21,066 nt of DNA from a virus. The notes under the pieces were generated by a model. The model was given only the letters and a program-made list of their open reading frames with translations. It searched no databases and had not been told where the DNA came from. Position 1 is the stretch's first letter. The number at the start of each line of letters is the position of its first letter. The position numbers were made by a program, and so were the translations under genes. Positions 8,332 to 11,009 of the stretch are shown in pieces. The stretch is taken from positions 1 to 21,066 of the IMG/VR virus record IMGVR_UViG_3300028188_000034; one strand, given 5' to 3'.

Positions 8332-8985
8332 TTAATGTGCTAGATAAGAGATATTCTTTATCCCTTTATCCCAGCACTTCCTACACTCACCACACTCACC
8401 ATTGTTATCGAATGACTTACAAGTTGCCTTGCTTTTATCCGTAACAACGGTGCTTGTGTTGCTATATAAAGGTGCTTTACCGTCCACCATACTACCACTA
8501 AGGCGTATGACAATATTATTAGGTAAATCCCCTTTATAATTCTTTATAATCCTACTTTCTTTAGTAGGTAACCAATGTTTAATAGTTGGTGTTTGTCTTA
8601 CTACTGACAATATCTTATCAAAATGTTCTACACTTTGCAAATCACCACTATCGTGCCATCTAAAAACACCTTTATCCCTTATATCCTTTTTATTAGATAT
8701 GAGATATACCATAGCACTAACCCATTCAGGCTTATTTATTGACAATAATCTACGTTCTTGTGCTTCTACAATAGCAGGGTATCGCTTATAATTACCCTTT
8801 AAAGCATAACAACTTGAACATACACTATTTTTAATTAATCTTAATCTACTCCCTTTAATACACTTATTAGCGGGTATTGAATAACTACTCGATGGCATTT
8901 TACTTGTGGTGGTTAATCCTTCCACCACTGATAATGCTTGTTTAATTGTATTTATAGGCGTAAATAAATTGTTTGTTATATCCAT
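8332..8985 (-). CDS. Phage gp88-family protein
   Basis: 217 aa with the hallmark order of the mycobacteriophage gene product 88 family: SIPANKCIKGSRLR (36-49), SVCSSCYALKGNY (54-66), FRWHDSGDLQS (108-118) and HWLPTKESR (137-145). The conserved cysteines (42, 56, 59) plus a C-terminal cluster (189, 198, 201, 204 in GECGECRKCWD) suggest Zn or Fe-S binding. The biochemical role of the family is not known to me. It is among the first genes transcribed from the strong leftward promoter near 9400, which suggests early expression. AAAGGA lies 8 nt upstream of the ATG, one base after the stop of the 59-aa gene. Confidence 0.85.
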   Translation of the reverse strand: MDITNNLFTPINTIKQALSVVEGLTTTSKMPSSSYSIPANKCIKGSRLRLIKNSVCSSCYALKGNYKRYPAIVEAQERRLLSINKPEWVSAMVYLISNKKDIRDKGVFRWHDSGDLQSVEHFDKILSVVRQTPTIKHWLPTKESRIIKNYKGDLPNNIVIRLSGSMVDGKAPLYSNTSTVVTDKSKATCKSFDNNGECGECRKCWDKGIKNISYLAH

Positions 8986-8986
8986 T

Positions 8987-9166
8987 TTATTTATCCTTTA
9001 TTTTTGTTAATCCGTTATATTTAAAATCTTTATCAATCATAAAATAAACAATCTTATTATCTGTTTCTAATATCTTATAAAATTGCTCATTCTTTTTTTG
9101 TAACACGTTATAAAAACTGTATATCTTTTTCACTTTATCCCCTATCTTTATTTGGAATAATTCCAT
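8987..9166 (-). CDS. Small basic protein at head of leftward operon (59 aa)
   Basis: A complete 59-codon frame (MELFQIKIGDKVKKIYSFYN at the start, ending LTKIKDK), Lys-rich and likely beta-strand-rich. It ends one base before the gp88-like gene and has AAGGG just upstream of the ATG. It would be the first gene of the transcript from the 9396-9424 promoter. The KIGDKVKKIYSFYN opening looks like a small SH3/KOW-type barrel, which is only a guess. One copy of the 22-bp dyad repeat (9095-9116) lies inside its coding sequence. The AT-rich context and short length lower confidence. Confidence 0.6.
   Translation of the reverse strand: MELFQIKIGDKVKKIYSFYNVLQKKNEQFYKILETDNKIVYFMIDKDFKYNGLTKIKDK
9095..9116. 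repeat. 22-bp dyad repeat, copy A
   Basis: An exact 22-nt match to 9318-9339. On the minus strand it reads TTTTT-A-TAAC-GT-GTTA-C-AAAAA, that is, nearly perfect two-fold symmetry with one mismatched pair. This copy lies inside the 59-aa gene. Exact duplication plus dyad symmetry suggests a protein-binding site. Confidence 0.6.
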
Positions 9167-9317
9167 TATCCCTTATTAACAGTTATTTGTCAAATCTAAA
9201 TAACCTTATTAAATAATCATAATTTAAATATATAATTATCAATAATAATAATATGCAATAAATAAATAATAAAAAACCAAATACGCTATAAAATAAAATC
9301 ATAATTAAAACCCTTTG

Positions 9318-9339
9318 TTTTTGTAACACGTTATAAAAA
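9318..9339. repeat. 22-bp dyad repeat, copy B
   Basis: Identical to 9095-9116 over 22 nt, same orientation, 223 bp away. It lies about 50 nt downstream of the predicted start of the leftward transcript. A partial match (TTGTAACA, 9426-9433) abuts the -35 element of that promoter. This is consistent with an operator set, not proven. Confidence 0.6.
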
Positions 9340-9395
9340 TATACATATAAGAGAAAACAAAACGCGTTTAATTAGTTTCTCAATTTATACTTATA

Positions 9396-9424
9396 ATTAT
9401 ACGCTTATGATGTTATTTTGTCAA
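9396..9424 (-). promoter_or_regulatory. Perfect consensus sigma-70 promoter for the leftward operon
   Basis: On the minus strand, TTGACA (9424-9419), a 17-nt spacer, then TATAAT (9401-9396): both hexamers and the spacing are exactly the sigma-70 consensus. Transcription would begin near 9389, about 220 nt before the 59-aa gene at 9166, and read through the gp88-like and small-protein cluster. It indicates that host RNA polymerase drives the early leftward genes. Confidence 0.85.
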
Positions 9425-9494
9425 ATTGTAACAAGGTGCAAAGGCATAACACAAAAGGGATTAAACATATTACAAGAATTATTTTAATAAATAG

Positions 9495-9523
9495 TTACCT
9501 TTTTAAATTCAAAGGCGTATAAT
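9495..9523 (+). promoter_or_regulatory. Sigma-70-like promoter for the solitary rightward gene
   Basis: TTACCT (9495-9500), 17 nt, TATAAT (9518-9523). The -10 is perfect and the -35 matches 3 of 6. GCG before TATAAT is shared with the divergent leftward promoter. Predicted start near 9530, giving a leader of about 60 nt before the ATG at 9593. Confidence 0.6.
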
Positions 9524-9592
9524 GATAACTATCTACTGAGAGGTTAAGCCCTCAAAGGGATATTATAATAAATAAAAAGAGAGTTAAATAAA

Positions 9593-10177
9593 ATGACAAA
9601 TAAAAAAGAAAATAAAAATATAACTGTTGACTTGGTTAATAACACAAAAAACAAAGATATAAGTAAAATCAACCTTTCAACTAATGAAAAACATCTATAC
9701 AATAAAGTGGTCGGACATAATAAAGAGGGTGCGAGTATAAATAAAGATGTTTCTATGCTATTAAAAACGGGCAAGAAAGGCATTGAGTCAGTTGAACGTA
9801 TCGCCAAAGCCCTTAAAGATAATAACGAGCCTTTAAATGCTTATAAAATGGCGGTATCAAGGTTTTATAAAGATATGCCAAAAGAGAATAAGTTATCATT
9901 GCAGGGATTAGGTGCTAACGGCGTGCCATTTATCGGTAAACTATCTAACAGTGGCGGGAATAGCGAAAAGAAAAAGGCGGTCAATATGAATATAAATAGT
10001 ATTGATTTGTTTTTCGATGAAATGAGTGTTAATGAAGAAGACGCCTTTAATGAGTATGTATTTGACTTCGCCGATAAACTCAGCATTGAGTTACAACAGG
10101 CGTTAGTTAATCACTTACAAGATAATATAAAAAACGGTGCTATTTATGACCCTCATAAGAGTAAGAAAGTCGCATAA
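9593..10177 (+). CDS. Solitary rightward gene of unknown function (194 aa)
   Basis: 194 aa, no recognised family. The N-terminal 40 residues are Lys/Asn-rich and probably disordered (TNKKENKNITVDLVNN). The middle is helical and basic (KTGKKGIESVERIAKALKDN, YKMAVSRFYKDMPKENKLSL). A Gly-rich linker (GLGANGVPFIGKLSNSGGN) leads to an acidic helical C-terminal part (FFDEMSVNEEDAFNEYVFDF). No signal peptide, membrane segment or cysteine. It has its own promoter (9495-9523) and terminator (10197-10225), and stands alone between the leftward and late blocks, like a moron or an early host-control gene. It uses CG-containing codons (GCG, GCC, GGC, CGC) more freely than the flanking phage genes, which hints at a separate origin. 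The ribosome site is weak (AGAGAG). Confidence 0.75.
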   Translation: MTNKKENKNITVDLVNNTKNKDISKINLSTNEKHLYNKVVGHNKEGASINKDVSMLLKTGKKGIESVERIAKALKDNNEPLNAYKMAVSRFYKDMPKENKLSLQGLGANGVPFIGKLSNSGGNSEKKKAVNMNINSIDLFFDEMSVNEEDAFNEYVFDFADKLSIELQQALVNHLQDNIKNGAIYDPHKSKKVA

Positions 10178-10196
10178 TTAGTTAATAACTAATATT

Positions 10197-10225
10197 AAAC
10201 CCTGCTTTTATAGCGGGGTTTTTTT
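10197..10225 (+). terminator. Rho-independent terminator after the solitary gene
   Basis: The stem AAACCCTGC / GCGGGGTTT (10197-10205 with 10213-10221, one G-T pair) has a 7-nt loop, TTTTATA, and runs into seven T. It lies 20 nt after the stop codon at 10177. A classic strong intrinsic terminator that isolates this gene from the late operon. Confidence 0.9.
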
Positions 10226-10244
10226 ACGCCCAGCATAATCTAAA

Positions 10245-10264
10245 TGAGAATGATTATCATTAGC
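10245..10264. promoter_or_regulatory. Fur-box-like palindrome
   Basis: TGAGAAT-G-ATTATCA at 10245-10259 matches the 7-1-7 Fur consensus TGATAAT-N-ATTATCA at 13 of 14 positions. Over 19 nt (10246-10264) it matches GATAATGATAATCATTATC at 16 positions. No phage fur gene is visible, so a host Fur protein would be the reader. No clear promoter overlaps it; a TTGACA on the minus strand (10291-10286) lacks a matching -10. The site is clear by eye; function is inferred. Confidence 0.55.
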
Positions 10265-10385
10265 ATTACTCAGTTGGTGGTGGTTTGTCAATAGAATAAT
10301 AAAGAAGTGTTACTATTATAGAAGTGTAAATTAAAGCATTAACACAAGCCCCACGCGTATCATAAATTAAACGATTGTTAGTCAA

Positions 10386-10435
10386 CCAAGGGCAATACCA
10401 AGGGCAATATTAAACGTGGCAATACGGGGCAGTAT
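10386..10435 (+). repeat. Short tandem repeats (GGCAATA units)
   Basis: CCAAGGGCAATA occurs twice in perfect tandem (10386-10397, 10398-10409). Diverged units follow: GTGGCAATA ending at 10424 and CGGGGCAGTAT at 10425-10435. Four G-rich GGCA(A/G)TA cores in 50 nt look like a binding-site array or packaging element. Not coding. Confidence 0.6.
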
Positions 10436-10441
10436 CAAGCC

Positions 10442-10492
10442 TTATATGATGTCCACGCCTTTGTGGTATATAACCCTGTTAACCATAGGGGT
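10442..10492 (+). other. Tandem hairpins in GC-richer non-coding block
   Basis: First hairpin: TTATAT (10442-10447) and CCAC (10453-10456) pair with GTGG (10463-10466) and ATATAA (10468-10473) around a GCCTTT loop. A second weaker stem follows directly, ACCC/GGGT (10473-10476 with 10489-10492). Further on, CCCC near 10517 can pair with GGGG near 10547. This could be a structured RNA or a DNA recognition site. No T run follows, so it is not a normal terminator. Confidence 0.4.
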
Positions 10493-10660
10493 ATTATCCT
10501 GTATATACGCCCCGCCCCACCCCTTTTCGCGAGAAGAAATTATTTGGGGAAACCCACCTCCAAGTAAAATTCAAGGTTTTCCATTCTACATTAGTATTCT
10601 CTAATATCGGGCTAAGTGTGTACTCTTCACCAGGATGCGTATAGGAGGTTTGTCAATCTA

Positions 10661-10680
10661 TATATCTCTAAAGAGATATA
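10661..10680. promoter_or_regulatory. 20-bp palindrome upstream of the first late promoter
   Basis: TATATCTCT-AA-AGAGATATA is a perfect inverted repeat of 9-bp arms with a 2-nt centre. It lies about 35 bp upstream of the extended -10 of promoter P1 (10715-10723), next to where the -35 contacts would fall. This is a natural operator or activator position. Confidence 0.5.
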
Positions 10681-10714
10681 CACTATGAAATAGTTACTTA
10701 TTGGTCTAATTTTA

Positions 10715-10723
10715 TGGTATAAT
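10715..10723 (+). promoter_or_regulatory. Extended -10 promoter P1 toward the late genes
   Basis: TGG-TATAAT, within a 15-nt block (TTTTATGGTATAATA, 10710-10724) repeated exactly at P2. No convincing -35. The transcript would carry a leader of about 280 nt before terS. Confidence 0.65.
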
Positions 10724-10967
10724 AAGTATATTATTTATACAGCATACTACGTTAACAACTTCTGCATAACAATCATTATATCAGATGCGATATCGGGGTA
10801 CAGTGTCCACACATAGTTACATTAAGAATGTGCATTAGTAACACTTTACTTTACAAACTAACATCAATAACAACTAATGAATAAACAATCAGAATTATAA
10901 CTAACGTAGTAGAGATATAGTTAATATAATATTTATTGTCATAAAGGTTAATGTCAATCTGGTTTTA

Positions 10968-10976
10968 TGGTATAAT
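10968..10976 (+). promoter_or_regulatory. Extended -10 promoter P2 for the late operon
   Basis: TGG-TATAAT again, in the same 15-nt block (10963-10977). A weak TTAATG sits 17 nt upstream. The start would be near 10983, only about 27 nt before the terS ATG, so the leader is short and A/T-rich. Likely the main promoter for terminase, portal and capsid genes. Confidence 0.7.
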
Positions 10977-11009
10977 ACTACTATTGAAATATATTATTTT
11001 TAATAAATT

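Follow-up and report, generated by a model that had tools for sequence, protein, structure and literature searches.

The window, which is the whole stretch of DNA analysed, is a 21,066-bp linear viral record. Its plus strand encodes SU10-type portal, capsid and adaptor proteins, which place it in a marine SU10-like podovirus, and its minus strand encodes a Cas4-domain exonuclease, a DNA polymerase and a primase-helicase. A gene for a protein of 194 residues lies at the divergent boundary between the early and late genes, with roughly 600 bp on its left that are non-coding or hold short frames, 832 bp on its right and no overlapping neighbour. Neither the window nor 15 related records, each of which may be incomplete, yielded an integrase or resolvase (PF00589, PF00239), and to that extent there is no indication of classical lysogeny. 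No tRNA was found, and Rfam gave nothing above the gathering threshold. The gene and its signals are as follows.

9495–9500, plus strand: weak −35 element (TTACCT) of the gene's promoter, with a 17-nt spacer to the −10 box
9518–9523, plus strand: −10 box (TATAAT) of the gene's own promoter, kept in seven homologous loci
9579–9583, plus strand: ribosome-binding site (GAGAG), assigned from the sequence
9593–10177, plus strand: gene of 194 residues with an ATG start, a proposed early transcription regulator
10197–10221, plus strand: intrinsic terminator with stem AAACCCTGC/GCGGGGTTT and a T run after it, supported by RNA folding and kept in homologues

The terminator has a folding energy of −14.8 kcal/mol (z score of −3.9) and had been overlooked by a simple terminator scanner. 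With the reading frame, −10 box, ribosome-binding site and terminator all present, the isolated transcription unit described in the original prediction is confirmed. All seven aligned loci have kept the −10 box and the leader, the box reading GCGTATAATG but GTGTATAATG in L016 (loci are numbered with the prefix L). Both are also kept in L004, although the gene there has the opposite orientation relative to the terminase, which indicates that promoter and gene move as one cassette. The promoter–gene–terminator cassette is inverted with respect to the terminase in both L004 and L015, with the orientation of the flanking late control DNA unchanged. A separate observation concerns L001 (5730–5921) and L003 (2360–2551), which carry an additional gene of 63 residues between the boundary gene and the late region. 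This gene is missing from the window, and the same terminator is copied on both of its sides, as in an insertion by terminator duplication.

The protein consists of a helical N-terminal domain (residues 30–91), a hairpin motif LSLQGLG..P.IG (residues 101–116), a basic linker and acidic C-terminal helices; residues 134–194 include 12 acidic and five basic residues, in agreement with the basic middle and acidic C-terminus noted previously. No family was recognised in Pfam, PHROG, NCBIfam or PADLOC, as had also been claimed, and weak matches such as Flu_B_M2 (E = 0.027) were dropped as below the cut-off. Model confidence is low outside residues 31–100. A first model contains a β-hairpin at residues 101–116, and a second model, built with remote homologues, is mostly helical with a pLDDT of 77–82 over residues 51–90. 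Three fold searches with two AlphaFold models, which were of low confidence, gave no match better than chance, and a sequence search of the PDB gave none. Winged-helix membership was considered from the helix–helix–hairpin order, with no match in its support, and since no known fold was matched, a helix-plus-wing DNA-binding arrangement is a guess only.

The DNA upstream of the gene contains a repeated palindrome and two leftward promoter elements.

9095–9116, no strand assigned: candidate operator copy 1, TTTTTGTAACACGTTATAAAAA, in the vicinity of the 5′ end of a short frame read leftward (59 residues in L001)
9165–9193, minus strand: leftward promoter-like site P2, TTGACA-17-GATAAT, matching the consensus at 11/12 positions
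9318–9339, no strand assigned: candidate operator copy 2, a repeat of the 22-bp palindrome identical to copy 1
9396–9424, minus strand: leftward early promoter P1, TTGACA-17-TATAAT, matching the consensus at 12/12 positions and conserved in close homologues

The two copies of TTTTTGTAACACGTTATAAAAA are exact and 223 bp apart; the window contains no further copy with up to three mismatches, and none was obtained in 100 shuffles. Judging from the spacing, they are located approximately 40–70 bp downstream of the predicted P1 and P2 starts, and an element similar to P2 lies between the operators of L100. All homologous loci with intact upstream DNA contain 2–4 copies of the palindrome. The other homologous loci have a copy about 120 bp before the start codon, between the divergent promoters; the window has lost this nearest copy by a small deletion. 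The inverted gene of L004 is likewise preceded by its promoter and by an operator close by. A scan of 2.9 million viral contigs with TTTTRTAACRYGTTAYAAAA matched 14 contigs. Those with at least two copies all encode the boundary gene's family (7/7), among them L100, which is 42% identical, had escaped the earlier protein scans and was found by the palindrome alone; the single-copy contigs comprise three from the related L034 group and four that are unrelated. No RNA fold of the palindrome was obtained in the leftward transcript. This favours a site acting as DNA, and a role as an RNA hairpin was rejected on this ground.

Homologues of the gene were found in seven other viral contigs. A tblastn search of 50,697 phage records, run with the protein as well as with two more from other subfamilies, gave no match, and a scan of bacterial and archaeal genomes found none. 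The literature searched contained no report of the locus, which is weak evidence as subscription papers were mostly outside its coverage. The suggestion of an undescribed function stands. For a comparison of the boundary, 80 loci were gathered via TerS. Most of those with enough upstream DNA have a gene of 140–250 residues on either strand approximately 0.5–1.5 kb before TerS, and in many marine SU10-like relatives it is a direct or remote homologue of the 194-residue gene. Profile comparison identified remote homologues in L029 (E = 7e-6), L022 (E = 0.005) and L046/L085 (E = 2e-4 to 1e-3) and weak ones in L034/L040 (E of about 0.005). Their common core, in an alignment that is uncertain, ends in LSLQGLGKKGxPxIG, followed by the basic linker and acidic helices.

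Comparison with the homologues gives a dN/dS of about 0.23–0.25 where synonymous change is unsaturated, corresponding to purifying selection. Between phages with flanks (GP88, left intergenic DNA, late control region, TerS and TerL) that are mostly 94–99.6% identical, the DNA identity of the gene is 57–90% by segment, and its C-terminal part has been swapped between close phages. On these alignments, the pattern is one of diversification or exchange at the locus, rather than that expected of a neutral passenger.

Other versions of the boundary gene are accompanied by other palindromes, likewise repeated around the gene.

L046: palindrome TCTGTAACRCGTTACAAA
L085: palindrome CTCGTAACGCGTTACGAA
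L029: palindrome GCGTACTCAGTACGC
L023: palindrome TGCGAACTGGTTCGCT
L034: palindrome CAGGACAGTGTCTTG
L040: palindrome CAAGACAATGTCTTG
L087: palindrome CAAGCAATTAAATGCTTG
L072: palindrome TACGCATTTAAATGCGTG
L086: palindrome ACACTTCACGAAGTGT
L041: palindrome TGTAACAGTGTTACG
L050 and L053: palindrome ATTAGCGCGCGCCAAT

Most of these had no equal in 30 to 100 shuffles, and palindrome scores were low in control DNA taken downstream of TerS. The set consists of few and partly redundant contigs, and the same loci served both to discover the palindromes and to test them. The corrected palindrome statistic allows a mismatched centre and omits sites less than 600 bp from TerS, as in L046 and L085, the palindromes of which were taken from the first statistic. 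In most subfamilies the nearest upstream copy is located 99–166 bp before the start codon, with the gene on either strand; L034, L040 and L086 have extra copies closer to the start codon, and the copies of L050/L053 are at about 265. There are no copies inside the boundary genes and few elsewhere. No repeated palindrome stood out clearly in L056–L061 and L066–L081, lineages with boundary genes that look different.

On its right-hand side the gene is adjoined by the control region of the late genes.

10421–11009, plus strand: late control region upstream of TerS, a neighbour outside the gene
10712–10723 and 10965–10976, plus strand: extended −10 promoters TTATGGTATAAT, conserved across relatives

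A short distance before TerS, nearly all relatives carry TTATGGTATAAT, in many cases twice, and this recurrence suggests that it is the late promoter common to the group. The protein might then be a late-gene activator or an early-to-late switch acting mainly on the promoters upstream of TerS, as the adjoining pair of conserved promoters and a palindrome copy on the TerS side of the gene in several subfamilies would suggest. We consider this unlikely, since the window's own family has no operator copy in the late control region and the copies in the window cluster at the leftward early promoters.

Two further palindromes were observed in the DNA between the gene and TerS. A second palindrome, TATATCTCTAAAGAGATATA/TATATCTCTWWAGRGATATA, is located at 10661–10680, upstream of the first late promoter, and also occurs in L007, L016, L015, L017, L022 and L029, with two copies in some relatives; it may serve as a further operator or form an RNA hairpin (−7.2 kcal/mol). 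Palindromes resembling Fur boxes (TGAKAATNATTMTCA, up to one mismatch) are present at 10245–10259 of the window and in L017, L033–L037, L073 and L078, with arrays of 3–4 in L034 and L073. Within 662 kb of partly redundant loci, 40/45 such matches lie within 1 kb upstream of TerS, and by their sequence they may be sites for a host Fur protein within the late control region.

Operator similarity follows boundary-gene similarity (partial r = 0.64, p = 0.0002) and not TerS (partial r = 0.04, p = 0.27). The TerS proteins of L087 and L086 are 97% identical, with entirely different palindromes and boundary genes that are hardly similar, whereas the window and L008 share a palindrome and have related boundary genes at a TerS identity of 67%. 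These comparisons bear on a second alternative, in which the palindromes are bound by another protein, either a host regulator or a different phage protein, for example TerS at pac sites, and the boundary gene is unrelated to them. In its favour, the link between protein and site is indirect, and the operators lie in a promoter-dense region. We nevertheless regard this explanation as improbable: palindromes differ at TerS identities of 92–97% where the boundary genes differ (L087/L086 and L046/L050), the partial correlation with TerS is nil, and L004 and L100 keep the operator although their leftward neighbour is a DUF7178-type frame and not GP88. A role as TerS pac sites was rejected because the palindromes track the boundary gene rather than TerS.

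The observed/expected CpG ratio is 1.31 in the gene compared with 0.34 in the rest of the window, so the difference from the flanking genes that had been noted is real. The phage genome is otherwise strongly depleted of CpG. The ratio exceeds 1 from about 8750 to 10500, however, non-coding DNA included (genome median 0.35), and the excess is therefore a property of the whole boundary region and not of the reading frame alone; it is present in many relatives but not all. A moron, or a gene for host takeover or anti-defence, with its own transcription unit, in line with the original prediction of a moron or host-takeover gene inserted between modules, would fit the separate promoter and terminator, the distinct composition and the fast divergence with C-terminal swapping, but is decidedly improbable given that presence is not sporadic (most relatives examined have the gene or a counterpart at the same boundary), that the CpG anomaly extends over non-coding flanks and that repeated operators tracking the gene are unexpected for a moron.

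The conserved operator system that accompanies the gene points instead to control of the phage's own early transcription, and a part in host takeover, though possible, is not needed to explain the locus. The earlier suggestion of binding to nucleic acid or to a host complex finds strong, if indirect, support in its nucleic-acid half from the repeated palindromes that track the gene. We think it likely that the gene encodes an autoregulating DNA-binding regulator of an undescribed, fast-diverging family, controlling its own and the early promoters via co-diversifying operators. This assignment draws on sequence comparison, namely the conservation of gene, promoter, terminator and operators, the near-constant placement of the operators and their co-variation with the gene; we infer from it that the boundary protein binds the operators, that the N-terminal domain does the binding and that the effect is repression. 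Bound at TTTTTGTAACACGTTATAAAAA-type palindromes, which lie both between the divergent early promoters and a little way downstream of them, the regulator would control its own promoter and the leftward early/replication operon. In its simplest form it would be a repressor that limits early transcription, each allele having its own operator.

The locus may be immunity-like, in phages without known lysogeny genes. More tentatively, and with less confidence than in the regulator itself, it could be a fast-evolving, recombining locus through which a resident phage silences the early genes of a co-infecting phage of the same type, selecting new operator specificities. If true, the assignment as a regulator would give a first handle on gene control in an uncultured group of marine podoviruses and a new family of DNA-binding proteins with many ready-made protein/operator pairs, and it would make mutual exclusion by immunity-type repression testable in phages without lysogeny genes.

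In the lambdoid immunity regions, CI and Cro act with OL and OR through allele-specific operators at their own and the early promoters. The present locus is similar in having a regulator gene between divergent promoters, with repeated candidate operators at its own and early promoters that vary in sequence with the regulator allele. It differs in that there is a single regulator gene, no helix-turn-helix family or other DNA-binding domain was recognised by family, sequence or fold search, and no integrase was detected.

The phiEco32-like phages are podoviruses too, and their virion genes are related to those here (SU10-type portal and capsid). Their middle and late promoters are served by a phage sigma factor (phiEco32 gp36 sigma and gp79; 7-11 gp47; PMC8948821). 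In contrast, the late promoters here resemble host extended −10 promoters, and no match to a sigma family was found among the 20 proteins scanned.

Cluster A mycobacteriophages (L5, Bxb1 and Trixie) have an immunity repressor with operators and stoperators (PMC6550527, PMC9283540). Their sites are asymmetric, 13 bp long and spread out in tens per genome, whereas those described here are palindromes in 2–4 copies at the boundary only. Cluster A phages are temperate, whereas no integrase was found here in the window and the 15 related, possibly incomplete records. Their repressors diverge in step with the genome, whereas the boundary gene diverges out of step with TerS. In both, several sites surround the gene of a phage regulator and the early left promoter, and site and protein co-diverge among phages. 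By this analogy, repressor/operator co-divergence in Cluster A is the closest parallel known (PMC6550527).
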